Made by a program: the position numbers and the translations under genes. A stretch of 64,000 nt of DNA from Pegea sp. RAD2-039 (taxonomy: Eukaryota > Chordata > Thaliacea > Salpida > Salpidae). Below are positions 3,261 through 48,128 of the stretch, piece by piece. The stretch spans positions 310,001 to 374,000 of the forward strand of contig JAQGEQ010000081.1 in assembly GCA_034620365.1 (NCBI GenBank), in the 5' to 3' direction. Positions within the stretch are counted from its first letter, which is position 1, and each line of letters opens with the position of its first letter. The notes under the pieces were generated by a model. It had not been told where the DNA came from, did not search any database, and was given only the letters and a program-made list of their open reading frames with translations.

Positions 3261-3379
3261 AACTGAATGTATCAGTTTCTAAATGAATTCGTTAACACAG
3301 AAAGAAATCAGATTATATCACTTGAGAAACATAATCTTATATATAAACCTGTTTTAGTCTCATATTTCCGGGTTAAAAC
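3261..3379 (+). ncRNA. P-B cassette a (candidate structured non-coding element)
   Basis: Palindrome AACTGAatgtaTCAGTT at 3261-3277, a 73-nt spacer, then the B hairpin at 3351-3379 with arms GTTTTAGTCT and GGGTTAAAAC (10 of 10 pairs counting G-U). Spacer positions 3302-3323 differ almost wholly from cassette l, although both sides of the spacer match it. A 67-aa open frame overlaps but is not conserved as protein. That this is transcribed is inference. Confidence 0.4.
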
Positions 3380-4705
3380 AGCAAAAAGTGAAGTTCTTAA
3401 AAAAAAACATTTAAAAATAAACTTGTTATTAATTCGCATTAATTTTTTTAGACTCAATTATAGTTTTTGATGTATACTTAAAAAAAGAGAAACTGTAATT
3501 TCTTAGTAAATGTTGTATGTAAAAAGTAATATTTGTTTCCTATAAAAAAGTTTGAAAAGAATGTATTTGTTAAAGAGAAGTAAATGTAATGAAGTACTTC
3601 TTGTCTTATTAGAGTTGAAATTAGATGTTGAGTAGTAAATTCACTTTTAACGAGTAAGTTTATGCGGTGAGCTCACATTACATCCCAAAGAATGCAGCTG
3701 GTAAAGCATTTCATTGTTTAAATATGTATAAAATGAAATTGCATAACAGCTTAAGGATTTTCTTTAAGTAAATTTAATTTTTCAAAATTATTTAATACTT
3801 ACTATTTATAAAAACACATTTTCAATTAGCTTCACTAGGATTTGCATATTTATGATAGCATAAACGATCAAAATAATTTTACGGCGCAATAGCTGTAAAC
3901 TTTGCTAATTTCATCAGTAACTTTAATTGAATTTAAAATGTACAAGTGTTCAGCAAAAATATCATATTTTTATACGTTAAAAAATAAAAGAAAGTGGAAA
4001 TTATCCAAGGGTATTGAGTTCTGAATAGATGATTATTAACGAATTCAATTTTTTACCAGTTTACACCACAAACGCTAGAATATAAGAAGCTTTTATATAA
4101 TAATAAACTGAAACAAAGCTCCATTTCTAATGAAGGAATATATTTAAACTAATTTGGAGTTGAATAAATTTCAACAAACTTCAATCAATATTAACAAGGT
4201 GAAATATAGTCTTAATGCCATATTTAACATTTAGATTTCTAAAACACCATTTTTGATACAACTTCTCGATTATAATTTATTATTGAATAACATTTTGAAA
4301 TCTATTTTTTATCCAAGTATACATAAAAGCAAATTGCAATTTTGATTAAGCAATAAAACAATTTAAACAAAAAATATAGAATTATCTAGAAAACTAGCAA
4401 ACAAACTTTTTAATGTACTGATGATAATATTTAGAATATTTTATTGTGTAAACATCTTTGAGGGCAGGTAACACTTCCCCTTAATAATATACTTTAGTTA
4501 TACCTTACTAACAAAAGAACATACTTTTGAAGTTACTTACTTTGTAATAATCGATCTTTTCATAGTTGAAAGAAATGCTAAAATATCAAATATTGATTGA
4601 CAAACGCTGTGTTAAAAGCATTTTCTTAAAATTATTTAAAATTCAAATGATATAATTGAAAATCATCCAAACCAATAATCTATACAACTGTGTATTTTCA
4701 TTGTT

Positions 4706-4817
4706 AACTGAATATATCAGTTTCCAAATAGGCCTGTCACAGTTTAAATTGTCTGTCAACTGGAAACGATAACCTCATAAATAAGCCTGTTTTAGTTTCA
4801 TATTTGTGGGTCGGAAC
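4706..4817 (+). ncRNA. P-B cassette b
   Basis: Palindrome with loop ATATA, spacer 66 nt (the shortest). Hairpin arms GTTTTAGTTT and GGGTCGGAAC keep 9 of 10 pairs, because several A-U pairs became G-U. The spacer holds GTCAACTGG, which could alternatively pair with the 3' arm of the palindrome. Confidence 0.35.
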
Positions 4818-6094
4818 AGAAAAAAAGTAAAGGCCATAAAAACCAAACAGAAAAATTTAATTTCTTAATTATTTGTCGTGTTTTTTTTAATTATAAGGTT
4901 TTACCACTTAACACTACAAACAGTAGATTATACAAAGCTTTTATATAATTATATGCTGATTACAAGAATTAGAACAAAATTCACAGACGAATGTTGGCCT
5001 ATATCTTGGGTTAATTTGAAGTTGAATGAAATTCATACTCCTCTATAGATATTAACAAGCAGTGTATCAAGTACTACTTTTTATCTTGCACTCGGTTCCC
5101 TTATATAATGTTCAAACGCAAAAAATTTGAAATGTATTCAACCTTTATATTATTACGTTTAAAGAAAGATATAGCTTAAACGACTTTTCAAAGCTTAGGT
5201 TAACTCTCATTAGGCTTTTTGAAACAAAAAATCGATTTTGTAATAGTATATAGACATAAGAATTTAAATATAATTAACAACTTAATGTCTGTTTTGGATT
5301 AAGAGTAGCTTATTTAATTCTTGTGAATCACGAAATTCGATAATTTTTTATTCTACTTTTAAAAACAGTTATCAAAATAAATAGATTTAATATAAATACA
5401 TAATCTTCCTCATTATAAAGAAAAGGAATTCGACATCAATTTCATGTTAACAAATTATGCTGCTGTAGAAATTGAAATATTAATAAATATATTATTAGAA
5501 AACATTTTAAATAAAAATTTTTGCTTCTATGTTCGGAATGACAAAACATTTAAGAAGTTTAGAAGTTTTCTTTGAACTCAAAATTTGTTTAAATACTTTT
5601 CTGATTTTTCAAAATTTATTTTATCCTTCTTGACTTAGGTAGAACTTCAAAATAAAGCTGGTAAAATTTAGTTACAATCCAAGAAATTGGATCATCTAAT
5701 ATTAGTCTTCTTCATGTATGCTTATTACTACCCAAAAGATTTTTGTAGTCTAATTTATTTATTTATTTAATTTAGTTAATTATTAGTCTAATGAAAAACA
5801 AAACAATCAAAAATTGTTTGTCCAACGCGGTGTATGAAAAGCATGTTCTTAAAATTCTATTATAAGTTCAAGAACAGCGTTTTTTGACTAAATAGAAGCA
5901 TCACTTAAAAGCCACACAAATAATTTAATAATATTTAAACGTTGTGTCTGTATGTTTTATGTATGTTGAAAATAAAAACGAAAACAAATACCAAAAAGAC
6001 AATTCTTGCATTTTAAGCAGAGGCTAAGTTCAATAGAAAACAGCTTTATTGATAACCAACAATAACAACAATCTGTAATTTTCTATTTTAATTC

Positions 6095-6221
6095 AACTGA
6101 AAATATCAGTTTCCAAATTTTAGGAGAATTTAAATTAGTAGATTTTAGCTACAGCTTGAAAGAAAAAAAAAACCAACCTTATAATTAATCCTGTTTTAGT
6201 CTCAAATTTGTGGGTTTAGAC
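6095..6221 (+). ncRNA. P-B cassette c
   Basis: Palindrome with loop AAATA, spacer 81 nt (the longest, with an A-run near 6170). Hairpin arms GTTTTAGTCT and GGGTTTAGAC keep 9 of 10 pairs. Confidence 0.35.
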
Positions 6222-6842: not shown

Positions 6843-7290
6843 AAAAGTTTTATTTTGAAACTGACTACTTGTATAAATTCTATGGTGTATAAATATGGTG
6901 ATATCAGAAAAATCGAATCTGTTCAGGCAAAATTTACGAGATTGGTTTGCAGGAAACTTAATATCAAATACGAGAGTTATAAGCATCGTCTCAGCTTCTT
7001 CAATCTAGATACTTTGGAAATCCGAAGAATTAAATACGACCTTATTCTGATTTTTAAAATTATTCACAACCTAATTGATCTTCAGTTTGATGACTTTTTC
7101 TCCATTAGTCCCTCCTTCAAGTTATATCAACTTAGAAGACATAAATTACATCTTAAAGAGCCCACTCCACCAGCAACGTTAACCAGATTAAGTTTTTTTC
7201 TCATACCGTACAATCAGTACATGGAACAATCTGCCATCAGAGATTGTCATGTCAAAATCACTTATGCTGTTCAATATAAAAAAATATTTG
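6843..7290 (+). pseudogene. LINE (CR1/Jockey/L2-like) reverse-transcriptase C-terminal relic, frameshifted
   Basis: Reading from 6843, the frame gives the region C-terminal to the reverse-transcriptase palm in CR1/Jockey-type ORF2 proteins: DIRKIESVQAKFTRLV, then YKHRLSFFNLDTLEIRRIKY, then DLILIFKIIHNL, then LRRHKLHLK. At the T7 run ending about 7199 the frame must shift. The neighbouring frame then continues with SYRTISTWNNLPSEIV and LMLFNIKKIF, the W-N-x-LP signature that ends this family. The first in-frame ATG is internal and a stop lies just upstream at 6840-6842, so the element is truncated at its 5' side as well as frameshifted. No palm-domain motif was seen upstream on this strand. 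After about 7290 the sequence passes into the iota-side repeat module. A 170-aa open frame here is only the unshifted part. Confidence 0.8.
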
Positions 7291-8966
7291 TTTGCAATAC
7301 TAGAGTTAGAAAAGAATGTATTGTTCAAATAGAAGTAAATGTAATGAAAAACTCGTTGTCTTATTAGAGTTGAAAATAGATGTGAAGTAGTAACTTCAAT
7401 TTTAACAAGTTAATTGATGTGGTGAGCTCATATTACATCGCAAGGGATGCAGCTGGTAAAGCATTTCAATGTTTAAATAACTGTATAATGAAATTGCGTG
7501 AAATTTTAAAGAGATTTTTTTAATAAAATTAATTTGTTAAAATTTTGTATTAAATACTCTTCATAAAAAATCTTATTTTTGCTTCACTAGCATTAGCGAT
7601 ATTTACCATAAAGTCACCCGTAAAAGTTGACAGATTCCAAAATGACATAAATATAAGCAACAAGAACGTACGTTGAATGCGTTGATGTTAAAAATTTTTA
7701 AGTCAAGTAGTCTCAATCTTTGTCTTATGTCTCAATAGTTTGTGGTTCTCAACAAAAATAATTTTTAAATTTTATAAGTAATTTTTCTAAGGACAATATA
7801 TATAATATAACCTCAAAATTATACATTCTAAAATTAAATCTTGAGATTTTATGAACTTTATCTTTTAAAATACAATACTTATACTATTTTAGTTTGTCTC
7901 TAATATAACTAGAAAGCAAGTTACAAACTATATAAAGAAACTCACATTTACTGTTTTTTTTTAAATAAATGAATAAAATAAGGTGAATATACTAAAGTTA
8001 AATTAACTTTAACAAAAAATAACAACATTAAAAACAACATAAAAATTTACAACTATCCCAAGTATCAAGAGTGAAAATTAGTTTTCTTAGTATGACTATT
8101 CTTTAAATAATGTTATTTGAAAGTATTATTATCTTTAACAAACAATAATCAGTAGATGAACATAACTGTAATTTCTCTGCTACAATTTCTTTTAAATGTT
8201 TATTTCGAAAATTTTCTAACTGAAGAAAGTAGAATAATATATTCTATATAGCAAATGTATTTAAATTAGTCATAATCATCTAAACTGAGAAAGAAATTTC
8301 ATTTCAATAAAAAATATTTTCTAATGCTTCACTGGCATCAACGTTATTTACCATATAATCACCCGTAAGAAAAAATGGGTTCCAAATATAAAAACTTTTT
8401 AGATGGTTGCATCTACGCATATTGAGTTGAATCTCAAACCTTATATAAAAAGTGGTCTCAATCTTATGTTTGTGGGGCTGAAAAACATAGCTTAAAAGTT
8501 GTAATGACTAATTTTTAAATGAAAATAATAAAAAATTCTCAAAGCATTTTCAATAATGACACTGATAATAATATTTTTTATATATTTCTATGTATTGGAT
8601 GTTTATATTGTTAAAATTGTATAATTTGTTAACTTTATTTTCTAAATTAATATTCTAATAAGTTTACACTTTCAGTAAATTATGTAGAAATTATTTTCCA
8701 TTTTTCGCAGTTCAGAAAAAATATTCAATAAAAAATTTAAGAATAAATAAAAATAATATAATATTTTAATAATATAGATCCTTAACAACCTCCAGTGTTT
8801 TTTAGCTTGATATTTTCGCTTATGTTTCTACTTTCATTAGAAAAACTATTTATATAATTTATAAGTTGAAACTTGTTCAACCCCAAAATAATAATTAATG
8901 ATAACGTTAAAAATAACAATTGAATATTAGGAAAAATTTTGTTATACTCATCTTATATATTATTGC

Positions 8967-8995
8967 ATTTTAATCTAATGTTTGTGAGTTAAAGT
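8967..8995 (+). repeat. B-hairpin relative, second subfamily
   Basis: Aligned on TTTGTG, the outermost G-C pair of the cassette hairpin is A-T here, and the G-U at pair 7/23 is A-U. Related copies lie at 38407-38435, 48536-48564, 51734-51762 and 55118-55146 (the last with more damage). No P palindrome precedes them. Confidence 0.5.
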
Positions 8996-9340: not shown

Positions 9341-9459
9341 AACTGATTATATCAGTCTCAAATGTTAAACGGAAGATGGGAAACTTCAAATAACCTGTCA
9401 ACTGGTAAAGCTAACCTTATTAATAAGGCTGTTTTAGTCCCAAATTTGTGGGTTGAAAA
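9341..9459 (+). ncRNA. P-B cassette d
   Basis: Palindrome AACTGA/TCAGTC, spacer 73 nt. Hairpin arm GTTTTAGTCC turns the innermost U-G pair into C-G; the outermost pair is lost; 9 of 10 pairs remain. Confidence 0.35.
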
Positions 9460-9969: not shown

Positions 9970-11427
9970 GAACAACACAAACTAGAATGTGAATTCAATT
10001 TTGATGCAAACACAAATCATTAATGACAGAAGTTGTTCATGACAAGTGTAATAATTTTAATAATTTGTTTTAAATACTTTATTGAACTTTGTTTAAATGT
10101 ATCCTTGACTCGTAATATATTAACAAGGTTATATTTGTCATTAATACAATTGTCAGCACAAAATTTAGCAGATAAACAGTCTAAAACCTTTTCTATAAGA
10201 GCTAAGTAGCACCCATTAATATTTAATAGCACTTAACAAATTATTCTTGCTTTAAAATGTATTTTCAGAATTAGAAAAAAAAGTTAAAATCAAGTACCAA
10301 CAGCGTCAGCTAGCGATTGGTGTGATTTACAAACAAAATGTTGGATTTTTAAGAAACAAAAAACTAAACCAAAAAACAAACATCCCTTGATTTTGTTATT
10401 AGCGAGCAATTGTATAGAAGATCATATCAGCCCTTTAATTATTTGCTGCAATGTTCTGTTATGCTAAAACGATTAAAATACTCTTCCACGTGCAATAGTT
10501 GTAAAACTTTGCTAACTTCTGTAATGAACGTTTTAAAAATTAAAATGTACACTTACTCTGCAAAAATTATAATTTTAAAAAGTTGAAAAATTAAAATAAA
10601 GTTCAAAATAGCCAAGGGTATTAATCTCTGAGAAATGATTATTAACAAATTAAATTTTTTTACAAGTCTACACCACAAACACTAGACTATAAGATTCTTT
10701 TAAATAATAGTATACTCGAAACGTAACACATATGTACGGTTGGTTATATCAGGCAATCTTTTATTAATTTGAAGTTGAATAAGTTTCAACAAATTTTAAT
10801 CAATATTACCAAGTAGAAATATGGTTACAATTCTATAGTTTTAATTTTAAACATTTTCCAGCTCAACTTGGTTTTCAATTTCTGGATAATAATTTTTACT
10901 GGCGAAAATTTAATTAGTTGACAACGCACTTATTAGATTATGTACAAAAGTAAGCCTTATAGTTTGTAAGCCTTTTTTGGTCCCCTTAAACAAAAAATTG
11001 TTTCTAAAGGATGAAAAATGTTCAGTTGTAAGCTGACAACTGTAACTGTTGTCTGTTTTGACTTATATAGTTTCTTGAACAATAAAATGATTTGATTATA
11101 TATCTACATATATATGTATATTATAGAAACTGATTCAAACATTAAAATATATACTTCCCATTCTTTTCATATGCTTAAATCAAAAACAATTTTGACGCTT
11201 ACAATTCATTAATAACAGAAGTTTTTCATGAAAATTGTAATAATATTATTAATCTGTTTTTATTAGTTTAATAAATTTGTTGAAACATATTTTTGGTATG
11301 TAGTAGATTAATAAGAATTAGTTTATTTGTCAGTAATAAGATTGTCAGTACAAAAGTAGGCTGTTAAATAGTTAAAAACCAATTCTCTAATGGCTAGTGC
11401 CACATTTTAACATCAATTGTATTTAAG
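9970..11427 (+). repeat. duplicated block D3, copy 1
   Basis: Collinear and highly similar to 39539-40995, containing beta, gamma, a delta core of the GCGTCAGC variant, epsilon and alpha. The two copies part after ATTTAAG: here a second gamma tract follows; in the other copy a different alpha-to-delta run follows. The 70-codon open frame on the minus strand is repeat sequence, not a gene. Confidence 0.9.
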
Positions 11428-13068
11428 ATTTAATTTATTTGTCAATAATAAGACTGTCAGTAAAAAAATAAGGAATTAAACAGTCTAAAATTAATTCATT
11501 AAGAGTTAAGTGCCACATTTAGTATCGAATCATACTAAAGAAAAAAATTCTGGTCTTAAAATGGTTGGTCAGAATGAGAAATCGAATTAAAAAAATATAT
11601 ATTTTTACCAACAGCGACAGCTAGTGGATGTTGTGATTTACAAATAACTTGTTTGATTTTTAAGAAGCAAAGAAAGATTAAACTAAACCAAAAACAAACA
11701 ACTCGCTTGATTTTGTTATTACTGAACGTTTGTAGAGAAAATCAAATCATCCTTTAAATTATTTGCTGATATTTTATGTTAAATTAAATCGATTAAAATA
11801 ATTTTCAACACGTAGTAGATGTAACCTTTTGCCAATTTCTTCAATAGTTCCTTTTTAATTTAAAATACACACTTAGTCAGCAAAATTTATATTTTAGAAA
11901 AGTTAGTGAGTAAACATAGGTTGAAACTAGCCAAGGGCTTTGAGCTCTGAAAAATTAATTTATAACGATTTCAAGGTTTTACCAGTTTACAACACAAACA
12001 GTAGAATATAAGAAACTTATAAATAGCTTTATACTGACTTAAAGAGATTAGGTATAACGGTCTGATTCGAATGATTGACTAAATATCATATTAATTTGAA
12101 GTTGAATGAATTTTAACAAACTGTAATCAATATTACCAAGCAGTGTATCAACTGCTACCTTTTAACTTGCATATGGTTTTCTGGTATAATTTTCAAACGC
12201 AAAAAATAGATTGTTATAGTTTATATAAGAAACTGGACCATACTTGACTTCCTAAAGCTTAGATTAACTCTCTATGGGATTTTTTAAACCGAAAATCGAT
12301 TTTGTAAAAGTACCTATAGATTAAGAATTGAAAAAAAATTAACGTATTAGCGATTGATTTGGATTATTAGCAGCTTATTTAGCTGTTTAGAATTTGTATT
12401 ATTAGTATATATATTATTAGATGATATTTTAAATGAAATTGCTTGTTTCTAAGTTTAAAATGATTATCATTGAGGTTTAAATAACCTCAATACAATAACT
12501 ACCAAAAAAAAATTTTCTAATATTTTATACACTCACAGTACTTGTTAACCTAATTAAAAACCGGCTTTAACAATAATTGATCATCAACAAAATCAAAAAA
12601 CTGTAGAATGTCTGTGTTTTTAAATTCAACTGAATATATCAGTTTCAAAATGTTAGAAAAAAGACAAGAACTTTGTAAGACTTTTATATATGAAAGATAT
12701 TGACCTTATAAATAAGCCAGATTTAGTCTCATATTTGTGGGTTAAAACAGAAAAAAGTAACGTTCTTGAAAACAAATTTTTAGAAATGAAGCTCCTTATT
12801 TATTCATTATATATTTTAAAATAGAATTATCTTAATTTTAAGTTGAAACAGAGAAAAGTAGATTTCATGATAACAAAAGACAAAGATAAGTTTTATATAA
12901 ATGACAGCAATATTTTTCCTGATTTGATTTGAATTATTTTCACTAAAAGTGCTTTGTATAGTTGTGAACTGCAATGCAGTCCTAAATGCATTCCAATGGT
13001 TTTTAAACGAGATTAGGATTTTTTGATTTTAGTTTCATTATAATTAATTTATTTTGATAATTTAATAA
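11427..13068 (+). repeat. duplicated block D4, copy 1, then cassette e
   Basis: 11430-12471 is similar to 18630-19685 (gamma, delta, epsilon, zeta). At about 12472 the copies split, and this one jumps to the tract that also starts near 15450 (ACACTCACAGTAC..TTAACC), followed by cassette e. 12955-13020 contains GTGAACTGCAATGCAGTC, also present near 28620 and 52020. Confidence 0.8.
12628..12748 (+). ncRNA. P-B cassette e
   Basis: Palindrome with loop ATATA, spacer 75 nt. Hairpin arms GATTTAGTCT and GGGTTAAAAC (9 of 10 pairs). The nearest relative is cassette h, with differences concentrated in the middle of the spacer. Confidence 0.35.
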
Positions 13069-16000
13069 ATATCCAAAATAATACACGTATAGTAATCAAT
13101 AACTAAAATTTATGTAAACTTTTTGAATTAACAATTTAATACAAGAGCATTCTAATAGCATAATTTTTAACTTTTATTTTGCTTTTTTTAATATTAAAAT
13201 ATAAATTATATCTGATTGATGCTTAGCGAAATTTTGAAATAAAATTTTTTGGTTAATTTTCTAGATAGAAAAGAATAGCACTACAAAATATGAAATTAAT
13301 TTTTTTTGACAATTTTCTAATTCAAGTTGTTATCAATTTATAGATTATTTTTCTACTAGCTAGAATCCAATAAGTTTGCAACAACTAGCGTATTTGCTAA
13401 TTTATCAACAAAAGTAAACTTTGAAGATAAATTATAAAGATTCTAAAACTTTTTGTTGAATTTCGTAAACAAAAAACTTTTTCTAACGGAAGAAAAAAAA
13501 CATAGTTGATAACTGACAGCTATAACTGTTGTTTGTTTTGACTTATATAGATTTTTGAATAAGAAAATGATTTATTCTTTATGGAAACTGATCTAAAAAT
13601 TGAACTTTTGCTTCCTATTGATTTATTATGTTTAAATCAAAAACAATCTTGAAGCACACAAATCATTAATAACAGAAGTTGTTCATGACAATTGTAATAG
13701 TATTATTAATTTGTTTTAGATGCTTTATTGAACTTTGCTCAAGTATATCGTTGACTGGCAATTTTTTAACACGATTGTCACTACAAAAGTAAGCAGTTAA
13801 ACAGTCTAGAATTAATTCTATAGAAGCTAAATGCAACAGTTTAATATCGAATTGTACTTAACAAAAATACCATTGTTTTAAAATAGTTTTTGAGAATAAG
13901 AAATAAAAAATAGTTAAAAAAAAGTACCAACAGCGACAACTAGCGGATGCTGTGATATACAAATAACTGGTTTGATTTTTAAGAAACAAAACAAGTTAAA
14001 CCAAGCTAAAAACAAACAACTCGCTTTGTTTTAATATCACCGAACATTTGTATAGAAAATAAAATCAGCCCTTAAATTTTTTGCCGATATTTAATGCTAA
14101 ATTAAAGCGATTAAAATAATTTCCCACAAGTAGTAGATGTAAACTTTTGCCAATTTCTTCAATAATTCTTTTTTAATTTAAAATACAAACTTAGTCAGCA
14201 AAATTTATATTTTAAAAAAGTTAGTAAGTAAAAGAAGTTGAAATTACCCAAGGGCTTTGAGCTCTGAAAAATCAATTTATAACGATTTCAAGGTTTTCTC
14301 AGTATACACCACAAACAGAAGTTTATAAGAAGCTCTTTTATAGTTATATACGGAGTGGAGGAGATTTGGTGCATCGTTCCGTTTCAGTCGATTGAACTGA
14401 TAACAGATTAATTAGAAGTTGAATGAATTTCAACAAACTTTAATCAATATTACCGAACAGTGTATCAACTACTACTGTTTATCTTGCACATGGTTTCCTC
14501 ATCTAATATTCAAACGCAAAAAAATGGTAAAATGTATTCCACATTTGTAGTTTCATTCATAAAAGAATTTAAACCATACCTGATTTTTTAAAGCTTAGAT
14601 TGACTCTCTATGGGATTCTTTTAAATAGAAAGTAGATTTTGTAATAGTAAATAGAGATTAAGATCTGAAAAAAAAAACTTATTATCGTTTGTTTTGATTA
14701 TAAGTAGCTTATTTAGCTGTTTTGAAATTTTTATTATTAGTTAATATATTATTAGATGATATTCTAAATGAAATTGCTTGTTTCTAAGTTTAAAATGGTT
14801 ATCATTTAAGTTTAATTTTCATGACCCTATCTACTTTTTTCAGAATTTAGTTAGACTTACTGTTATTTATAACCATTTGTTTGGCAATTAATTTTTTTAT
14901 TATTAGAAATCTATTTTTTCCATAGAAATTCTTCAACATTACTATTTGTAACTTAATTGTCTGAAAAGTATTCATAAAATAATCAAATCTTTCTCATTTT
15001 TTCACAAAATGAGCTTAATTGTTAATTTATAAACATTTATTTATTATTATGTTTGTTTGGATCAACATTACTTAGACGTAGTAGTTAATCAAAATGTAAA
15101 TCATATTTAAATATAAACATCAACTTAGTGTTTATAAAATTTTTATATATTCTGCATTAAGTAAATTTATTAAGCATAAAATAGAGCGGAATTAATTTAT
15201 GATTCAAAATTCATTTCTGGAAAAGAACTTTCAAACTTTTGTTTTTAGAAAAAATTAGATTGTGTATAAATATACATAAATTAAATAAATTTGATTAAAA
15301 ATTCTATTAAAGCGTTTTTCGACTAAATAAAAAATATCTTTTATAAGAATCACAAAGAATCTAATAATATCATAAAATCTCATCTTTCGATACATATATG
15401 TTAAAAAGATGAACAAATAGAACCACCGGAAAATAAAATATTCAGACTTTTTTACACTCACAGTATTTGTTAACCTATTTAAAAACCGGCTTTAATAATA
15501 ATTGATAATCAACAAAATCAACAATGTTTAGAATGTCTGTGTTTTTAAATTCAACTGAATATATCATTTTCAAAATGTTAGTATTAGGAAAAGTGCTTTT
15601 TAAAACTGGTTTACATGGAAAGTAAAATTCTTAAAACAAATTTTTAGAAATAAAGTTTCTTATTTTTTCATTATATATTTTAAAATAGAATTGTCATAAT
15701 TGTAAGTTGAAACAGAGAAAGGTAAATCTCATGAGAACATAAGACAAAAATAAGTTTTATATAAATGACAAAATTATTTTTCTTGATTTGTTTTGAATTA
15801 TTTTCACTAAAAGTGCTTTGTACAGTTTTTATTTTAAGAAATATTTTCCAAGGTTTTATTAATATTCTCGTCAACGCTTTGATTTCAAAAATCAGGTTTT
15901 TTGCAAAAGTTTAAATCTAATTTTAAGCAAATAGTCAAAGTTTTCGATAGTACAATTTTACACAATGTATATTTGAGATGTTTTTCGTTCAACTAAATTA

Positions 16001-17434: not shown

Positions 17435-17552
17435 AACTGAATGTATCAGTTTCCAAATTCCATTTTCAAGAATCGAGTGATAGAAAATGTCAGTTGAATA
17501 AATCCAGCCTTATTAGTAAAGCTGTTTCAATCTTATGTTTGTGGGTTAAAAC
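17435..17552 (+). ncRNA. P-B cassette f
   Basis: Palindrome with loop ATGTA, spacer 72 nt. Hairpin arms GTTTCAATCT and GGGTTAAAAC (9 of 10), where a G-U pair is replaced by A-U. Confidence 0.35.
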
Positions 17553-20780: not shown

Positions 20781-20900
20781 AACTGAATGTATCAGTTTCT
20801 AAATGAATTCATGATAAGAGAAATGATACACGTAAGGTCAACTTGGGAAACATAATTATTTATATTAACCTGTTTTTGTCTCATATTTGTGGGTTAAAAC
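20781..20900 (+). ncRNA. P-B cassette g
   Basis: Palindrome with loop ATGTA, spacer 74 nt. Hairpin arms GTTTTTGTCT and GGGTTAAAAC (9 of 10). Spacer ends resemble cassettes a, l and m; its middle does not. Confidence 0.35.
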
Positions 20901-21597: not shown

Positions 21598-21625
21598 ATT
21601 ATACAAACACTATTATACAAACACT
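21598..21625 (+). repeat. 14-bp tandem duplication
   Basis: ATTATACAAACACT twice in a row; the second block copy has it once. Confidence 0.85.
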
Positions 21626-33025: not shown

Positions 33026-35840
33026 TGTTAAATTATCAACAAAAGTCAACTTTCAAAGTAAATTATAAAGTTTCTACAAATTTCTTTTCGGGTTTCATAA
33101 ACAAAATCCTTTCCTAACGGAAGAAAAATATTTAGTTGAAAATCGACAGATATAACTGTTGTCTGTTTTGGCTTATACAACTTCTTGAATGAGAAAATGA
33201 TCGGTGTCTATCTTAGAAACTGATCTAAACATTAAAATGTATGCTTCATATTCATTGCTTGATTTTGGTTAGTTTCAGTTTTTATAACAAATGCTATTTT
33301 GAATTATATTTTGTAATCAAATATACTTAAGAGTAAATTGCAATTTCTATAAAAGAATACAAACATAAGATAAAACAAGAAGTTATTACTAGATTTATTG
33401 AGTTAAGATGAAATGTACTAAAAAATTATTAAATTAAAGCAAGTAGAAAGGTTTAGAGTTATCAAAAAAGTATTTCTACAAAATAAAATATCTTGATTAG
33501 TTTAAAATTACCTTTCTCATTTTTTTGCTAATTGTGCTAAAACAGAAAAGCAAGCAAAATTATAAATCCAAATGGTATTTTATTTTCAAATAGAATTTGG
33601 TTTTTAATTTGTTAAGAAAGTAATGAATTAAAGGTCTAAAATTTGAATTTCACCAAAACCAACATGCTTTTAAAAGAATACACTTTTAATTCAACTGAAT
33701 GTTTCAGTTTCTAAATTTGCTCATAATACTCATTCATATCAACCTTTCTTTCAACTTGTAAAAATAATCTTATTAATAAGCCTGCTTTAGTCTCACATTT
33801 GTGGGATAAAACAGAAAAAAATAAAGTTACGATAAATGCAAAATATGTTTTTTTTAGTAATATAATTATTTTTAAAATTTGTTAAGAAACTGATGAAACA
33901 GAAATCTGAAATTTATAATTATAAATACAAAACTTATGTGTTATGTTGTATAAAGTATAGTAAGATGTCATTATTCAGTTTATTTACTGATTTTTATCAT
34001 TTTATTAGAATTATAATCTTTTATAGTAGTTTCTATCGGTTTTTGATAGAAAGTAGCGTTTCTGTTTTTTGTTTGCAATATAAACAACTTACTTCAATAA
34101 ATTGAAGAAATCTACTAATTTGTTTGACAAAAGAAAACAAAAATTAACTAATTACAAATTTCTGAGAAAAAGAAATTTGTTTATGTAATAAATTTATTGA
34201 GCAATTTTTCATAAATCTGTAAATATCATAGTCTAAAAAAGTAAAAAAAAACAGTTGACTAAATAAAAATAAATCTTATAAGCAATAGAGAAAATTACAA
34301 GGTATGAAAAAATCGTGTCTGACTTATATAGCTTCTTGAATGAGAAAATGATTTGTTTATCATACAAACTGATGTAAACAATAAAAGTTTCTCTTGATTT
34401 TGGTTTCTTTTGTTTAAATCTAAAGCAATTTTGAAGAACACAAATCATTAATGACAGACGCTGTTGAAGACAGGCGAAATAATGTTATTATTTCCTTTTA
34501 TATACTTTATCAAATTATCCTAATTGCAACAGTTTGTTATCAAATTTTATATAGGAAAATTATATCTGTTTAAAAATGACTTACCAGTATAAGAAGTCAA
34601 ATGAAGGATAGATAACTTAACGTAAAGTCAACAGCAACAAATAGCGACTGTTTAAGTTCTCAAATAATTTGATAGAAGTTGAAAAAAATTTATTAAACTA
34701 AAATGACAACAACCAACTCGTTTTGCTATGTTGTTAACAAACATTTGTATGGGAAATCGAATCAACTTAAGCTAGTAGATGATTTGCTGCTTATAATTTA
34801 TAGCGATTAAAATAATTTTCCACACGCAAAAGGTGTAACAATTTGCTAACTTCTTTAATAAATTGTTTTAAATTTAAAATGTAGACTTACGATAAGATAA
34901 GAAATTAAATAATTTTAACTTACATAAATGATTTTATACATAATTTATGTTAGCAAATTTAGCATTAAAATTTCTTAACAAGATTTAATTTAATTGTCAG
35001 TAATACAATTTTCAGTACAAAACTTAGCAACAACTGTAAAGCAGCAACTTTTGTTTTTCAGAACAAGAAATTGAATAAAAAAAAGATAAAATAAAATGCC
35101 AACAGCGACAGCTGGCGGATGTTGTGAATAATTTGTTTGAATAAAATTTTAGAAATACAATAAATTAAACTAAGCCAATGACATACAACTCGTTTATTTA
35201 AAATAGTTATGTTGACTTATTTCAGTACAAAATTTATGGGGTTAACGTAAACGAAAGTTGATTTTTCTAATAGCAGAAAATATATGTTTTTAAATTTAAT
35301 TTTTCTTTCACTTAATATCAAAATAAAAAATGTATTTGATTGATGATTGAAGAACAAAAATTCTTGATTTTCAATTTCTGAATTATAGTGTTTACTAGTA
35401 AAAATGAAAAATGTTTTTGTATCTCATTTATAGCGCATTTTTGAGTTATCTACAAAAGGTACACTTTAAAGGTAAACAATATATTTTGTAAAACTGTTTT
35501 TGTTCTATTTCAACACAAAAATCTGTTTTGAGTAATGGAAATAATTGATCAAAAATTGACATTGGTAGCTGTTATCTATTTTGACTTATCTAGCTTCTTG
35601 AATGAGAAATGAATCGTATAATTCATAAAAAGTGATCTAAAAAGTAACAGTTTTCTTGTAAATTATTTCTTATGTTAAAATAAAAAAGTTGACGCAAATC
35701 ATTAATAACAGAAGTTGTTCATGACAAACACATTGATATTAGTAATTTGGACAGGTTCCAAAAGAACAAGACAACACCAACATGAATGAAAATTCTGAAA
35801 TTTATAATTGTATATAAGAAACGTTTAATCTTATGCATAA
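33025..35840 (+). repeat. module run with cassette i and duplicated block D6, copy 1
   Basis: 33965-35760 is similar to 55430-57280 and holds two delta cores (34629 and 35098, the second GCTGGC type) and an alpha-like tract. 33893-34105 and 34233-34448 are open by chance. Confidence 0.75.
33693..33812 (+). ncRNA. P-B cassette i
   Basis: Palindrome with loop ATGTT, spacer 74 nt with a largely private middle. Hairpin arms GCTTTAGTCT and GGGATAAAAC keep 8 of 10 pairs. Confidence 0.3.
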
Positions 35841-38800
35841 AATAGAACGATAATAAAATTATAACGAGTGAAATTATGGGGTGAGCTCATATTACATCGC
35901 AAGGGATGCAGCTGGTAAAGTATTTCATTGTTCAAATAAGTATAAAATGAAATTGCATAAGAAAATTAAAGATTTTTTTGTAAGTAAATTTAATTTTTCA
36001 AAATTTTGTAATACTTACTATTTATAAAAACACATTTCCATTTAGCTTCACTAGGATTAGCATATTTATGATAGCATAAATGATGAAAATAATTTTCCGC
36101 GCGCAATAGCTGTAAAATTTTGCTAATTTCATAAGTAATTTTAATTAAATTTAAAATGTACTCTTACTCAGCAAATAATATTACAATTGTTACAATTTAA
36201 AAGATATAAGAAAGTTGAAATTATCCAAGGGTATTGAATTTTTAAAAGATGATTAATAACGAATTCAATTTTATACCAGTTTACACCACAAACACTAGAT
36301 TATAACAAGCTTGTATATAATAGAAAACTGAAACAAATCTCTATTTCAAATAAATGAATAGCTTTGAATTAGTTTATAGTTGAATAAACTTAAACAAACT
36401 TTAATCAATATTGCCAAGAGGAAATAATGGCATAATACTTAATTTAAAATTTATTTTAATATTCATTTTCTGGATTATTCTTTATTATTATATAATATTT
36501 CGAAACTTGTTTTGTAACCAAATATACTTAAACGTATGTTGCAATTTCAATTAAATAATAAATAATTTTAAACAACAAATTTAGAATTATCTAGAGACTA
36601 AATGGATAATTAGACAAACATTTTGTAAAATACGTTTTCGCTTTTAAAATTTATTTAAATTTTCCTGATAACATATTATAGTATTATCAACATCACTATG
36701 TTTATATGACTCAATATAACAAAAATTCAAAAATGTTCAGAATTTTTATTTCCTTTTTGAATGCTTTTATTGTGAAAGTTTTTGTAAATTAAAAACTAGG
36801 AAGAAGTATAAATAATAGCATTAATTCCCGATACATTGACTTACAAAGTATCCAACTTACCTTAAAGATGAAGAATAATCATTACAATAAAGGTTTCTAA
36901 TACTTTATGTCGTCATAAAATTGAAATAATTGATTAAATAAATTTTAAAAAGTTTGCAAGTACAACAAAAAAGTATTAAATTTATGTAGTAAACATCAAA
37001 AACTGTTTTTTTTTTGCATCAGTGTCAAAAGTATTTTACTAAAGTTGTTTAATAACTCGGTTGAACCGATTTTTGACTAGAAAAAAAAATATCTCTTCCA
37101 TGTCTTGGATGAAACAAAAGTAATATTATCGTAAAATTAAAAGTATATGTCTCATGTGAGTAAAAAAAAGGAAAGTAACCACAAGAAATACATATGGATA
37201 AGATAAGATCTGGATAAGATAAAAAAGCTAAACATAGTCTCATATTTGTGGGTTAAAACAGAGAAAGATAAAGTCATGAAAACCAACGTTAAAAAATTAA
37301 TTTTCTTTATTATTCATCTTGATTTTTTATATTCAATTATAGTTTTTGATTCATACATTAGAATAAAAGAAACTACATTTTTTTTGTAAATGCTGTATGT
37401 AAAAAGTAATATTTGTTTGAAATGCTAAGGTTTGAAAAGAATTTATTTGTTAAAGAAAAGTATACGTAATAAAGTACTTCTTGTCTTATTAAAGTTGAAA
37501 TTAGATGTTAAGTAGTATATTCACTTTTAACGAATGAATTTATGGCGTGAGCTCATATTACATCGCAAGGGATGCAGCTGGTAAAGCATTTTATTGTTTA
37601 AATAAGTATAAAATGAAATTGTTAAAAGTTTAAAGATTTTTTTTAAGTAAATTTAATTTGTTGAAATTATGTAATACTTACTTAAGAAACCAAAGGAAAG
37701 TAAAATAATAAGTGAAAGAGAAAACTAAATTGCAGCACCTAAAAACATCAACAGTAATTTATCTACGTTAGTTATAATCATTTGAACTAAGATAGGAACT
37801 TAATTTCAAAATCTGTATTGTATAAACGTAATATGAGCTTTTAATGTATTATATTTCATTTAGATATATTCTTTGTTTTTTACATTAAGAAAACTCTGTA
37901 GACATTTTTGTATAACAATTATAAAAATGTTTTACTTTTTTAAAATCATTCAAATTTTTGTTTTACTGAAGACTATAATTTTTAAAATGATAAATACATT
38001 TATTTGAGTGTTCACTATACAAAATATGACCTATTACTGATTGAGTTTTTTAAACACTATCAACGTTTTTTAATATCTGTTCTATAAATAAAGAGGTAAA
38101 TTCAACCTAGTCAACTATTAATTGAAATTATATGTAAATAAAAAGGTTGTGTTTTAATATTATTATTTTATTATATTTTTTTATTTTGTATTTTTATTAA
38201 GATTATTATTAATATAATTTTCACAAGTGATCTTTAACAAGGCTAAGTATTTTGTAGCGTGTTATGTTTACTTTACTTTCTACTTTCATTAGAAAAAAAT
38301 TGATATAATTGCTAGGTAAACTTGTTCTACCTCAAAATTATAATAAACATTTGGAAAACGGTAACAAAATCTTTCACAACGTTATACTCATGTTACATAT
38401 TATGAAACTTTAATCTAATATTTGTGAGTTAAAATTTTAAAATCTTTACTTTTTGCAAAATTTGATATACTTTTATATTTTGAAATTATTCAATTTTTGA
38501 TTGATTTTATTATTATAAAATTCCTTATTTTTATGATTACTATATTACTAAATTATGTTTTTTATTATATTGAAAAAATTTATAAAACTTATATATAAAT
38601 TTAACTTTTTAATAAACCAACAAAATTTGATGAACCGTCTTGTTTGTTTTCAGATTTAAACAGATCAATTTCATCAATTAATAAATTTCTTTGTTAATAA
38701 AATTACCTTTCCTAACTAACAAATTGTTTATGTTTAGAAGAAAACTTAGCAAAAATTTCATTTAAAAATGCATAAAAGGTTAAATGAATTTGAAATTGAA

Positions 38801-38914
38801 GTAAAAAAACATGATAAGCAATACACTTTAAATAAATTCTAACAACATTTTCTACAAATTCATACAAATATTTCACGAAAGAATATATTACCATTATTAT
38901 AGAATTTATAGACA
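35840..38914 (+). repeat. two iota tracts and A+T-rich spacer
   Basis: Iota at 35880-35930 and 37547-37590, each followed by the tract ending TAATACTTACT. An isolated B hairpin lies at 37231 and a second-subfamily hairpin at 38407. 36600-37200 and 37700-38880 show nothing recognisable beyond A+T-rich drifted modules. Confidence 0.65.
37231..37259 (+). repeat. isolated B hairpin with decayed 5' arm
   Basis: 3' half CATATTTGTGGGTTAAAAC is intact, but the 5' arm reads AACATAGTCT and pairs poorly. No P palindrome lies at the usual distance upstream. Confidence 0.4.
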
Positions 38915-39033
38915 ACTGAATATATCAGTCTCAAAATTTTAAAACGAAGGTGTATCGCTATAAAAGACTTGTCAACTGCTAAAGCTAACCGTATAAACAA
39001 GTATGGTTTTGTCTCATGATTGTGGGTTGAAAC
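38914..39033 (+). ncRNA. P-B cassette k
   Basis: Palindrome AACTGA/TCAGTC, spacer 74 nt. The 3' part of the spacer (GTCAACTG..TAAAGCTAACC) matches cassette d, while the preceding 25 nt do not. The hairpin keeps 8 of 10 pairs. Confidence 0.3.
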
Positions 39034-40995
39034 AGAAAAAAGTAAAAGTGATAAATAAAACATTTACAAACAAAGTGTTTTATTTATTCGTAATATTTTT
39101 TTTGCAATTTGCACTTAAAAACCATAGAAACCACAATTCATTAGTAAATTTGTTTGTAAAAAGTAATAATTGTTTCCAATATAAAAGTTTTAAGAAGATG
39201 TATTTGTTAAAGAGAAGTAAATGTAATGAAAAACTTTTTGTCTTAATAGAGTTGATATTAGATGAGAAGAAGTAATTTCAATTTTAACGAGTTAATTCAA
39301 GGGGTGAGTCTATATTACATTGCATATGATGGAGCTAGTAAAGCACTTCGTTGTTGAAATAACTAAAAGATGAAATTAAGTAAGAATTTAAACATACCTT
39401 TTTGTAAACTAGAAACATTTTTTGTTAAGAAATGTAATACTTACTATTTATAAATAAAAGTTTCCATTTAGCTTCACTAGGATTAGCAATATTTATCATT
39501 ATGTCACCCGTAAAAAAGGACAGGTTCTAAAATAACACCAACAACACAAACTAGAATGTGCATTCAATTTTGATTCACTAAAATCATTAATGACAGAAGT
39601 TGTTCATGACAAGTGTAATAATATTAATAATTAGTTTTAAATACTTTAGTGAACTTTGTTGAAATGTATCCTTGACTCGTAATATATTAACAAGGTTATA
39701 TTTGTCATTAATACGATTGTCAGCACAAAATTTAGCAGATAAACAGTCTACAACCTTTTCTATAAGAGCTAAGTAGCACCCATTAATATTTAATAGCACT
39801 TAACAAATTATTCTTGCTTTAAAATGTATTTTCAGAATTAGAAAAAAAAGTTAAACTCAAGTACCAACAGCGTCAGCTAGCGATTGTTGTGATTTACAAA
39901 CATATTGTTGGATTTTTAAGAAACAAAAAACTAAACCAAAAAACAAACATCCCTTGATTTTGTTATTAGCGAGCAATTGTATAGAAGATTATATCAGCCC
40001 TTAAATTATTTGCTGCAATGTTCTGTTATACTAAAACGATTGAAATACTCTTCCACGTGCAATAGTTGCGAAACTTTGCTAACTTCTGTAATGAACGTTT
40101 TAAAAATTAAAATGTACACTTTCTCTGCAAAAATTATAATTTTAAAAAGTTGAAAAATTAAAATAAAGTTAAAACTAGCCAAGGGTATTAATCTCTGAGA
40201 AATGATTATTAACAAATTCAATTTTTTTACAAGTCTACACCACAAACACTAGACTATAAGAATCTTTTAAATAATAGTATACTCGAAACGTAACACATAT
40301 GTACGGTTGGTTATATCAGGCAATCTTTTATTAATTTGAAGTTGAATAAGTTTCAACAAATTTTAATCAATATTACCAAGTAGAAATATGGTTACAATTC
40401 TATAGTTTTAATTTTAAACATTTTCCAGCTCAACTTGGTTTTCAATTTCTTGATAATAATTTTTACTGGCGAAAGTTTAATTAGTTGACAACGCACTTAT
40501 TAGATTATGTACAAAAGTAAACTTTATAGTTTCTAAACCTATTTTGGTTCCCTTAAACAAAAAATTGTTTCTAAAGGATGAAAAATGTTCAGTTGTAAGC
40601 TGACAACTGTAACTGTTGTCTGTTTTGACTTATATAGTTTCTTGAACAATAAAATGATTTGATTATATATCTACATATATTTGTATATTATAGAAACTGA
40701 TTCAAACATTAAAATATTTGCTTCCCATTCTATTCATATGCTTAAATCAAAAACAATTTTGACGCTTACAATGCATTAATGACAGAAGTTTTTCATGAAA
40801 ATTGTAATTATATTATTAATCTGTTTTTATTAGTTAAATAAATTTGTGGAAATATATTTCTGGTATGTAGTAGATTAATAAGAATTAGTTTATTTGTCAG
40901 TAATAAGATTGTCAGTACAAAAGTAGGCTGTTAAATAGTTAAAAACCAATTCTCTAATGGCTAGTGCCACATTTTAACATCAAGTTGTATTTAAG
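39033..40995 (+). repeat. iota and duplicated block D3, copy 2
   Basis: Iota variant near 39301, then 39539-40995 matching 9970-11427. The minus-strand open frame 39587-39799 differs from its counterpart by a few residues, in line with neutral drift. Confidence 0.88.
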
Positions 40996-42054
40996 AAAAG
41001 TTTTTTTGTTTTGAAATGATTTTGTTAGTTTAAGAAGTCAAATAAAAGATAACAAATTTAACGTAAGTTTATCAGCGACAACTAGCGACTGTTCAAGTTT
41101 ACAAATAATTCGACAAAAGTTTTGAAAACAAACTATATTAAACTGATATAACAACAAATAACTTGTTTAATTTTCTTATTAATAAACATTTGTATAGAAA
41201 GTTAAATCAACTTATGCTACTAAATTATTTGCTGCTATGATCTATTAAATTAAAACCATTAAAATAATTTTCCGCAGGCAATAGCTGTAAAATTTTGCTG
41301 ACTTCTTAAAAATTTTTGTTAAATTTGAAATGTATTCCTACTCAGTAAAAATATTATATTTTTTATAAGTTAAAAAGTAAAAGAAAATTGAAATTATCCC
41401 CCAAATTCAACTTTTTACCAGTTTAAACCACAAACACTAGATTATAAAAAGGTTTTATATAATAACAATCTGAAACTAAGGCCATTTACCGATGAATACT
41501 TGACTTTCTTCTAATTTGGAGTTGAATAAATTTCAACAAACATCAATTAAATTTACCAACGAGAAATATGGTAGAAATGCTACATTTTCCATTTCAATAT
41601 TTAAAACTCAAATTGATATTCAACTTCTGGATTATAATTTATTATTAAATATTACTTTAAAATTTATTTGTTTTATAAGACAACTTCTTGCTACAAGACA
41701 TTTTTTATTTATACCTAAAGATTAAAAAAATTACAACGTTTTGATAGTATAAGAAAAACTTACCAAGGAGATGTATTAAAGTTCTTAAGGATGATTTTGT
41801 ACAAAACTTTAAACAAAGAATATAAACTAAAGATACAGTTTTCAATGATTTCTCATAAATCAAAAATTCTAATTTGAATAATAGTTCGATAACAGTTAAT
41901 TTTGATTTGATTTTCTAAATCAAGTTGTTTATAACTCATTTACTATTTCTAAATTATTATCGAAATTGACAAAAACTAAAATCTCAAAATTTGGTGATAA
42001 AAGTTGTAATAATAATATTATCGTTTACTTGATACTTTTTTGATTTTGTCGAAC

Positions 42055-42669: not shown

Positions 42670-42789
42670 AACTGAATGCATCAGTTTCTAAATGAATTCG
42701 TTTATACAGAATTGGTTTACATTATAACAACACGAGAAACATAATCTTATATATAAACCTGTTTTAGTCTCAAATTTGTGGGTTAAAAC
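42670..42789 (+). ncRNA. P-B cassette l
   Basis: Palindrome with loop ATGCA, spacer 74 nt, perfect hairpin arms at 42761-42789. The first 24 spacer bases nearly match cassette a, and from 42734 (GAGAAACATAATC) the two match again. Bases 42711-42733 between them do not. Confidence 0.4.
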
Positions 42790-45700: not shown

Positions 45701-47289
45701 TAATAATATCAATATTTATTTTATAATATTTATTTTAATAATTTATTGAACTTTGTTTAAATGTATCTTTGACTTGTAATATATTAACAAGGTGATATTT
45801 GTCATTAATGCAATTGCTAGCACAAAGTTTGGCAGTTAAACATTCTAAAATCTATTCTTTTAGAGCTAAGTAGCACAAATTAATGTTTAATCGTACTTAA
45901 AAAAATATTCTTGTTTTAAAATGGCTTTTTAGAAAAAAAAAAGTTAAAATCAAGTACAAACAGCGTCATCTAACGACTATTCTGATTTACAATTAACTTG
46001 TTTGATTTTTAAGAAACAAGAAAAATTAAACTAAACCAAAAATAAACATCCCTTGGTTTTGCTATTACCGAGCATTTGCATAGAAAATCAAATCAGCCTT
46101 TAATTTATTTGCTGATATTTTATTGTAATTAAAGCAATTCAAATAATTTTCCACACGTAGTACATGTAAACTTCTTCAAATTTCTTCAATAGTTCTTTTT
46201 TAATTTAAAATACACACTTAATCAGTAAATTTTATATTTTAGAAAATTTAGTAAGTAAAAAAAAAGTTGCAATTAGCCAAGGGCTTTGAGCTCTGAAAAA
46301 ATAATTTATAATAATTTCAAGGTTTTTTTTCGGTTACACCAGAAACAGTAGATTGTAAAAGCTTTTATATAACTATATACTGAGTGAAGGAGATTAGGTA
46401 CAGCGCTCCGATTCAGTTGAGGGTTTAAACATCACATTAATTTGAAGTTGAATGAATTTCAACAAACTTTAATCAATGTTACCAAGCAGTGTATCAACTA
46501 CTACTGTTTATCTTGCACATGGCTTCCTCATATATTATTCAAACGCAAAAAGTAGGTTATTATCGTTTATAAAAGAAATTAGAACATACTTGACTTGTTA
46601 GAGCTTAAATTAACTCTTTATAGGATTTCTTTAAACAGAAAGTCGATTTTGTAATAGTAAATAGAGATTAACTTCTGTAAATAGAATTAACTTATTAGCA
46701 TTTGTTTTGGATTATAAGTAGCTTGCTTAGCTGTTTTGAAATTTGTATTAATAGTATATATATTATAAGATAATATTTTAAACGAGACTGCTTGTTTCTA
46801 AGTTTAAAATGATTATCATTTAGGTTTACATTTTCATGACTTTATCTACTTTTTTTCATAATTTACTTAGACTTAGTGTTATTTATAAACATTTGTATGA
46901 CGATTAATGTTATTAAATGTTCTTCTTTTCATAAAAATGCTTCAAAATTACTATTTATTAACTAATTGTCTAAAAAGTATTCATAAAATAATCAAAACTT
47001 TCTCAGTTTCTCCAACAGATGAGCTTAATTGTTAATTTATAAACATTTATTTATTATTAAGTTTGTTGTGATCAACATTACTTAGACGTAGTCGTTAATC
47101 AAAAAGAAAGTCGTTTTTAAGTGCCAACTTCACCCCAATTTTTATTAAATGTTTCAATATTCTGCATTATTTAACTTTATTTATCATAAAATAGAGCGGA
47201 ATTTATTTATGATTCAAAATTCATTTCTGGAAAAGATTTTTAAACTTTTATTTTGAGAAAAAAATCAGATTTTGTAAAAACAACTAAAT

Positions 47290-47360
47290 CTACCTCGGTG
47301 GGAATCCAACTCGCCCTTGCAGCGTGGTAGGCGAGAAATCTACCATTGAACCACAAATGC
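47290..47360 (-). repeat. tRNA-like (Gly-type) element, copy 3
   Basis: Identical by eye to the copy at 2541-2611 over the 71 nt, inside a long duplicated block. Confidence 0.6.
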
Positions 47361-48009
47361 TGTCGAATGACAAAACTTTTTAATAGTACAAATTATATCA
47401 GAACTTAGTGCATAAACAAACAAATCAAGCAAAAAATTTGTTAAATTTGTAGAATTATTGTAATTTGTATTATTTATCTGTGATAGAACTATTTATTTCA
47501 GTTTGTTACTTAATCGCTAATTTAATACCTTAATAACTTTAAAACTTGATTTCTTATAATTCAAAGAAAAGTCAAAGATTGAAAAATTGTTTATCGAGCG
47601 TGGTTTCAAAAGCATTATCTTAAAATTCTTTTAGAAATTCAAGAACAGCATTTTTTTTTTCTTTAAGTTTTATATAAGTTGAAAAAATAAACAAAAACAA
47701 CTAGCGAAAGAAAGACAATTTAGAAAGACAAGCACCAGACAACAAGTACAAAAAGACAATTCCTTCACTTTTACCAATTACTAATCTCGTTAGAAGCGAC
47801 TTTATTGATAATTAATTATCAACAACACCAACCACCTAATGAATAAATAGCTTTTAATTCAACTGAATTTATCAGCTTTTAAAAAATAATGAAACAAGAT
47901 CTGGTAGCTTTGATGTCAACTGAAAAAATTCAGGCCTTGAAAAGCGACTTCAATAATAATTGAAATTCATCCGAACCAACAATTTGAAGAAAAATATGCT
48001 TTTAAATTC

Positions 48010-48128
48010 AACTGAATGTATCAGTTTCTAAATGAATTCGTTAATACAGAAAGAAATCAGATTATATCACTTGAGAAACATAATCTTATATATAAACCTG
48101 TTTTAGTCTCATATTTGCGGGTTAAAAC
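48010..48128 (+). ncRNA. P-B cassette m
   Basis: Near-identical to cassette a, being in the duplicated block 46.45-48.29 kb. Perfect hairpin arms at 48100-48128; one loop base differs (G to C next to the 3' arm). Confidence 0.4.

Follow-up and report, generated by a model that had tools for sequence, protein, structure and literature searches.

The window analysed here comprises 64,000 nucleotides (C92:310001-374000) of the 649,741-base contig C92 (JAQGEQ010000081.1), within the 105.7-Mb, 387-contig genome assembly of the salp Pegea sp. RAD2-039. It has a GC content of 24% and contains five open frames of at least 100 codons; a tRNA search of the window found none, and an Rfam scan of it returned no match at the gathering score. 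Its most prominent elements are repeated cassettes formed by a palindrome, a spacer and a second block, which we predict to be genes for RNAs of the small nuclear RNA (snRNA) type.

A first-pass annotation had reported twelve copies in the same orientation carrying both the palindrome and the second block. This was confirmed, taking as copies those with both modules (palindromes at 3261, 4706, 6095, 9341, 12628, 17435, 20781, 28287, 33693, 38914, 42670 and 48010); other window palindromes, such as those at 15553 and 31204, lack the second block. The palindrome occurs well above chance, with 26 window matches at up to two mismatches compared with 5.95 expected, and none of 100 shuffles gave as many. 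The exact palindrome, AACTGAATNTATCAGTT, was found 66 times in the genome, on six contigs (40 copies on C92), versus once in the reversed control, and it is the top-ranked island of a conservation profile built from 2637 matches of the window to itself and to C92:1-200000. The distance from the palindrome to the TTTAGTCTC core of the second block is 64-78 nt in the twelve copies (the earlier figure of 66-81 nt was measured otherwise). The cassettes had been called dispersed; the copies are real but belong to a same-strand array of duplicated segments, as indicated by 1086 plus versus 20 minus window-to-window matches in a self-comparison.

To read the second block, we used the snRNA genes of the same genome. 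A genome search gave 19 matches to U1 (18 over the cut-off) and 15 to U6 (13 over). Upstream sequence was collected from nine U1 loci, eight of which were used (the ninth is without the usual U1 start), and a 37-position matrix was built from these eight U1 promoters and compared with approximately 128,000 control positions. In seven of the eight genes the U1 RNA starts 57 nt after the first base of the proximal sequence element (PSE)-like element, and 58 nt after it in the remaining one. Read on the minus strand, the second block consists of CCCACAAATATGAGACTAAAACAGG followed by CTTATTTATA or TTTATATATA, corresponding to a PSE-like element and a TATA box with U1-like spacing. The U1 matrix detected 25 window sites at 15.5 bits or more, whereas the control maximum was 12.8 bits. 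These sites belong to 12 cassettes of the type described above (family A, minus strand), 11 members of a family B (plus strand) and one member of a family C, together with a site at 59362 (plus strand) that has no recognised RNA 3' part. All 12 two-module family A copies exceeded the control in this U1-only matrix. The second block is, as judged from its sequence, an snRNA-type promoter on the minus strand. The element previously annotated as a 10-bp hairpin is better read as part of this promoter, on the opposite strand, and the U1-type match indicates that the cassettes are to be read on the minus strand instead of the plus strand formerly taken as sense. The family A features, with the first gene given in full, are the following.

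3336 to 3372, minus strand: predicted promoter of the family A gene at 3261-3372, with PSE-like element and TATA box; U1 matrix, 22.4 bits; overlaps the former 10-bp hairpin.
3278 to 3315, minus strand: predicted 5' part of its RNA; predicted start at 3315, at the 57-nt distance from the beginning of the PSE-like element seen in seven of eight U1 genes.
3278 to 3284, minus strand: Sm-site-like ATTTAGA adjoining the hairpin on its 5' side, short of the strict consensus.
3261 to 3277, minus strand: terminal hairpin with 6-bp stem and 5-nt loop (the earlier palindrome).
4706 to 4810, minus strand: predicted family A gene, promoter to hairpin; U1-matrix match.
6095 to 6214, minus strand: predicted family A gene; U1-matrix match.
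9341 to 9452, minus strand: predicted family A gene; U1-matrix match; 13 nt in common with the C147 antisense core described below.
12628 to 12741, minus strand: predicted family A gene; U1-matrix match.
17435 to 17545, minus strand: predicted family A gene; U1-matrix match.
20781 to 20893, minus strand: predicted family A gene; U1-matrix match.
28287 to 28400, minus strand: predicted family A gene; U1-matrix match.
33693 to 33805, minus strand: predicted family A gene; U1-matrix match.
38914 to 39026, minus strand: predicted family A gene; U1-matrix match.
42670 to 42782, minus strand: predicted family A gene, the copy used in the earlier comparison; predicted start at 42725.
48010 to 48121, minus strand: predicted family A gene; the window's best U1-matrix match, 27.4 bits.

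For the wider comparison of family A, 94 distinct copies were extracted from a total of at least 135, and 87 of them, those whose hairpin could be recognised, were used. The distance from PSE start to TATA box is 27 nt in 73 of these 87 copies and in five of the six U1 genes measured, and a first TAT at 31 was found in 10 of the 87. A polymerase III gene of the U6 type was considered and rejected, since at the U6 loci the TATA box lies at 32-34 (nine of ten; none found in the tenth). The U1-like spacing of family A therefore suggests a promoter of the polymerase II type. U1 and U6 genes share the upstream element, and their TATA spacing differs by 5-7 nt in most genes measured, a difference that may set the polymerase; spacing is described as setting the polymerase in land plants (excerpt of PMC9841428).

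Twelve family A, twelve family B, two family C and five family E units, some of them degenerate, are present in the window. Family B genes combine a U1-type promoter, a variable body, an AATTTGA-type site and a hairpin of the form GTTGAA-5-TTCAAC. Family E has a TATTTTG-type site with the same hairpin form; the grounds for counting it are its 3' end and the fact that it recurs 21 times in 264 kb, rather than its matrix score. Family C is distinguished by a ATATTTGG-type site and a different, longer hairpin. The predicted members are listed below.

1582 to 1708, plus strand: family B gene.
4065 to 4175, plus strand: family B gene.
4913 to 5037, plus strand: family B gene, hairpin partly broken.
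10672 to 10790, plus strand: family B gene.
11991 to 12117, plus strand: family B gene.
14308 to 14434, plus strand: family B gene.
19203 to 19329, plus strand: family B gene.
29960 to 30086, plus strand: family B gene.
36285 to 36395, plus strand: family B gene, site and hairpin degenerate.
40239 to 40357, plus strand: family B gene.
41427 to 41537, plus strand: family B gene.
46338 to 46463, plus strand: family B gene, outside the best 45 U1-matrix matches.
8361 to 8476, minus strand: family C gene; promoter 16.8 bits.
51128 to 51243, minus strand: family C gene; promoter 8.4 bits, below the control maximum.
8865 to 8988, minus strand: family E gene; promoter 11.2 bits, below the control maximum.
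48435 to 48557, minus strand: family E gene; promoter 9.2 bits, below the control maximum.
51632 to 51755, minus strand: family E gene, hairpin altered; promoter 9.2 bits.
55016 to 55139, minus strand: family E gene; promoter 9.1 bits.
38392 to 38428, minus strand: family E-like promoter, downstream hairpin broken.

Genome-wide, family A promoters (at most three mismatches) number 135, with none in the control, and the listed places fall on contigs C92, C134, C96 and C283, which total 1.14 Mb; family B promoters number 127, with two in the control, and their listed places fall on the same four contigs and on C23 and C238. A rule scan combining PSE, TATA box, Sm-like site and hairpin, written after the families had been seen, recovered 40 sites in 264 kb and none in reversed and complemented controls. 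Rfam searches with single cassettes (E-values up to 2) gave 0, 2 and 3 matches, all far under the gathering scores (best E-value 0.17), and those with the C23 and C238 relatives gave none at E-values up to 0.1. Among the listed family A promoters, polarity flips once per contig, at about 50-66 kb on C92 and about 147-178 kb on C134; one looser match at 96.7 kb is an exception on C92. The family B relatives outside the main array (on C23 and C238) are nearly identical to one another; most of them have a stricter Sm site, ATTTTTGG, present before the hairpin in several C23 copies.

The 3' parts of the predicted RNAs were then compared across 24 guide clusters, in which the predicted start lies 31-48 nt from the palindrome. 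The seven bases before the hairpin read AUUUNGA, with A in 23 clusters, UUU in 24, any base at the fifth position, G in 20 and the final A in 24. Read on the minus strand, the palindrome becomes a 6-bp stem capped by a 5-nt loop. A hairpin of this shape, with the stem GTTGAA/TTCAAC, also occurs in families B and E and in the C23 and C238 relatives. Families A, B and E together provide 51 distinct stretches, and 292 of their 306 stem cells are paired. In a covariation set of 14 chosen intact stretches of these families plus one C23 relative, all 90 cells are paired and five of the six pairs differ on both sides between families, and both covariation and paired cells exceed those of all 500 shuffles; this covariation amounts to one between-family difference, seen many times. 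The 5' part of the predicted RNA gave no folding signal (mean z 0.04). The 3' box (GTTTN0-3AAARNNAGA, as given in the excerpt of PMC9006982) was found with at most two mismatches in 34 of 65 family A copies and in none of 57 downstream controls, a mixed result once the other families are included, and not used as support.

These features bear on an interpretation in which the plus-strand cassettes would be a mobile element, a recombination site or a pair of protein-binding palindromes, without any small RNA. Both modules, palindrome and second block, form near-perfect dyads to which a protein could bind at the DNA level, but this interpretation would have to treat as coincidences the match to U1 in sequence and spacing as well as the Sm-like site and hairpin that follow. 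Moreover, mobile-element and plus-strand readings are disfavoured because the copies lie within larger same-strand duplications and on few contigs (the 66 exact palindromes on six only), and we regard them as very improbable.

The first-pass annotation had also described conserved ends around a locally variable middle, exemplified by 3302-3323 versus 42711-42733. That difference is as claimed, and the variable segment 3302-3323 overlaps the predicted RNA 5' part at 3278-3315. In 599 family A pairs with flank divergence of 0.03-0.22 (mean 0.14), compared in 3-nt bins over the 87 copies, the stretch between position 48 (counted from the PSE start) and 13 nt short of the hairpin diverges by 0.24-0.40 per bin, with sharp edges and one lower bin (0.18 from the left anchor, 0.14 from the right), whereas promoter and hairpin bins in the same pairs diverge by 0.00-0.16. 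The predicted start falls inside this variable stretch. Among 32 copies with 420-nt flanks, the 12-nt bin 60-71 surpassed the other 39 bins in divergence in each of three strata (in an example stratum, 0.21 versus 0.07-0.14 in flank bins), and the same bin ranked first in all three strata of family B (20 copies). The middle is thus hypervariable in families A and B, whereas family E has no such excess. Reading the spacer as background drift agreed with a first alignment, which kept 39 of 53 extracted copies (14 wrong-strand or degenerate ones were dropped; spacer identity 0.40-0.50, flanks 0.42-0.62), and was set aside when close pairs later showed the excess, which was also seen when pairs were selected by one flank and scored on the other but was not significant among disjoint pairs. 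Conversion or exchange of middles, another earlier suggestion, found little support, with only 6 of 153 near-identical-middle pairs having flanks more than 25% apart. When flanks are 0.05-0.10 apart, positions 57-79 differ by at most 0.1 in 39 of 68 pairs and by at least 0.3 in 16; the changes look like jumps.

Localised variability might also arise in snRNA-like genes with a free 5' part, whose ends would be kept for transcription or assembly while the 5' part drifts, or mutates faster near the start. Three observations would be expected of such genes: divergence of the middle in distant pairs is close to saturation (about 0.50, with flanks reaching 0.40-0.47), the excess is not significant among disjoint pairs, and several copies are degenerate. 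However, in family A pairs picked by one flank the middle diverges by 0.18-0.20 compared with 0.10-0.12 for the other flank, that is, approximately 1.6-1.8 times the left-out flank, the middle being the more divergent in 182 of 284 pairs of one selection and 160 of 221 of the other (counts that are not independent), and the excess sits in the predicted RNA in two families and not in family E. We therefore judge this explanation rather unlikely. Spliced-leader RNA genes with many different leaders would likewise share an snRNA-type promoter, an Sm site and short length, which are also features of spliced-leader RNAs; nevertheless, the would-be leader exon is the most variable region and there is no constant leader exon, so that this origin is hardly credible.

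An alternative with a guide function of its own is a PIWI-interacting RNA (piRNA)-type locus resembling nematode type I (21U) loci, in which short capped precursors would be made, their first ~21-28 nt loaded onto Piwi, and the hairpin would serve termination. The array resembles the nematode loci excerpted from PMC6436959 in its snRNA-derived promoter, in its clustering and in having a variable segment where the RNA is predicted to begin. Argonaute-domain matches were obtained at three places in the genome, with pieces on C11 and C1 nearest Argonaute and a piece on C3 nearest PIWI, and the presence of this PIWI-like gene piece makes a piRNA-type locus possible. Conversely, the conserved downstream Sm-like site and hairpin are not mentioned for 21U loci in that excerpt, and no fixed YRNT-like start was seen at positions 55-62 in the 24 clusters, where the true start is only predicted. 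On these grounds a piRNA-type locus appears unlikely.

Three guide cores were searched against the whole genome on both strands. The first-pass annotation had suggested such a search of the variable segments for matching targets; one guide matches outside the array and the other two do not. The third guide has six exact places in the array and a further one, with two mismatches, at C147:115847-115870, with no match in the reversed control and 0.0003-0.002 matches expected at up to two mismatches. A sibling cassette at about 94,620 on C92 matches the C147 place exactly over 21 nt, corresponding to nt 6 to 26 of the predicted RNA. This cassette is the best of nine in its cluster, the other siblings sharing at most 13 nt; the expectation for the 21-mer, which was picked after the match had been seen, is 1e-5 to 6e-5. 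The C147 place lies in an open frame that extends over all 86 codons of its first stretch and the 150 nt before it, with 38-41% GC, and the guide is oriented antisense to this frame. By eye, the frame seems to end at a GT-AG intron and is likely an exon; it has no Pfam match and no credible PDB match. With one such match from three guides, this counts as a lead and does not amount to proof.

The sequence data give good support to a cluster of snRNA-type genes in which hypervariable 5' ends are combined with Sm-like sites and terminal hairpins; support is weakest for the Sm site. The observations behind this reading are a promoter match, a conserved architecture, localised variability, clustering and one strong antisense match; transcription, the polymerase, Sm binding, the RNA ends and guide function are what we infer from them. 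We give slightly better than even chances to the proposal that family A cassettes are minus-strand snRNA-type genes whose RNAs would enter Sm-class particles and use their 5' ends as antisense guides, and natural antisense guide particles are the most likely function of the predicted RNAs. The guide-like small-RNA idea put forward earlier is in part supported by this anatomy, because the minus-strand U1-type promoter sets the predicted start inside the variable segment, followed by the Sm-like site and the conserved hairpin. In the proposed mechanism, the snRNA transcription machinery (SNAPc, with RNA polymerase II as the probable enzyme) would assemble on the U1-spaced PSE-like element and TATA box and start an RNA of about 50-70 nt within the variable segment. 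Its first 25-30 nt would be single-stranded and differ between copies, and the Sm-site-like AUUUNGA followed by the terminal hairpin would lead to packaging as a small Sm-class particle resembling U7 or viral HSUR particles. Some 260 promoters of this type are counted for the locus, divided between two main families and both strands, and smaller families come in addition. In both main families the 5' ends change rapidly, whereas promoter, Sm-like site and hairpin are kept, and the variable 5' end would base-pair with other RNAs as a natural antisense guide.

Several results weigh against this proposal. The Sm consensus is RAU3-6GR, and its strict form occurs in 29 of 87 family A, 16 of 20 family B and none of 21 family E copies (the AU3-6G core in 47 of 87, 17 of 20 and 21 of 21, respectively); in some copies the site or the hairpin is broken. 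In the covariation count for the hairpin, 178 of 500 shuffles reached the number of changed pairs and all 500 reached the pair types, and the mammalian 3' box was absent from 15 family B copies, 14 family E copies and the flanks of the genome's own eight U1 genes. Regarding promoters, those of family E score 9.1-11.2 bits, below the control maximum of 12.8, as does one of the two family C promoters (8.4 bits), and matrix matches of 13.9 and 13.0 bits (25393, minus strand; 24093, plus strand) are assigned to no family and have no recognised RNA 3' part. Regarding variability, family E (21 copies) has no excess at bin 60-71 and its body is not hypervariable, and among 38 disjoint pairs the middle excess, present in 21, is not significant (p 0.17). 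Finally, two of the three guides match on array contigs only (17 of 17 and 27 of 27 places).

Elsewhere in the window, a related pair of C2H2 zinc-finger genes with tandem fingers lies on the minus strand at 22765-23376 and 62274-63038, within long duplications (21531-23134 versus 61055-62643, 94%; 22783-24390 versus 62376-64000, 89%). A minisatellite of about 60 copies of a 20-bp unit occupies 59838-61057 and is GC-richer and strongly skewed relative to the rest. The 170-amino-acid open frame at 6855-7367 (plus strand) has, by eye, the look of a reverse-transcriptase end, with no Pfam match. A search for the cuticle family PF00379 gave no match, which is uninformative. Further conserved islands of the array, assigned to none of the RNA families, occur at 11041, 34321 and 40611, at 39581 and at 35101, some of them with CTTATATAG and one with the GC-rich AACAGCGACAGCTGGCGGATGTTG.

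Among known systems, U7 snRNA has a comparable build: about 60 nt long, it has a single-stranded target-pairing 5' end, an Sm-type site, a terminal hairpin and an snRNA-type promoter, and engineered antisense U7 RNAs exist. Unlike U7, which has a single, fixed 5' end and an Sm site of its own sequence, the array has many genes with different 5' ends. The Rfam U7 model matched nothing in this genome, and control genomes gave no match either. More tentatively, and with considerable doubt, the array could be a guide-diversifying locus, with hundreds of U7-like Sm-class genes whose 5' antisense segments would be replaced under selection and whose Argonaute-independent nuclear particles would act on chosen pre-mRNAs or mRNAs; an animal would thereby possess a large and evolvable repertoire of nuclear antisense particles. 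Among the literature records listed there was no array of this kind, which is no proof of absence. U7 pairs flexibly through its 5' end with histone genes, and the Herpesvirus saimiri U-rich RNAs (HSURs) are Sm-class RNAs that pair with mRNAs and microRNAs (both in the excerpt of PMC6763288). The array's predicted RNAs would likewise be pairing RNAs of Sm-class type; the HSURs, however, are seven viral RNAs, whereas the array is large, genomic and hypervariable at one end. In Drosophila, where eleven Sm-class snRNA species were counted, the extra Sm-class LU snRNA was recognised by its PSE-type promoter, Sm site and covarying stem loops; as described in the excerpt of PMC4053861, it is a single gene per genome, while the array diversifies. 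Nematode type I piRNA clusters combine snRNA-derived promoters, clustering over megabases and unique start sequences (excerpt of PMC6436959). The array has their upstream-motif and clustering features, but its Sm-like site and terminal hairpin, not mentioned for 21U clusters in that excerpt, are among its most conserved parts. If the proposal is true, a locus that multiplies and varies the pairing end of an Sm-class RNA would be a natural counterpart of the engineered antisense U7 RNAs, with the C147 frame as the first target candidate. If expressed, it would represent a new way of making families of targeting RNAs and, in a non-nematode, a second use of snRNA promoters for a large guide repertoire.

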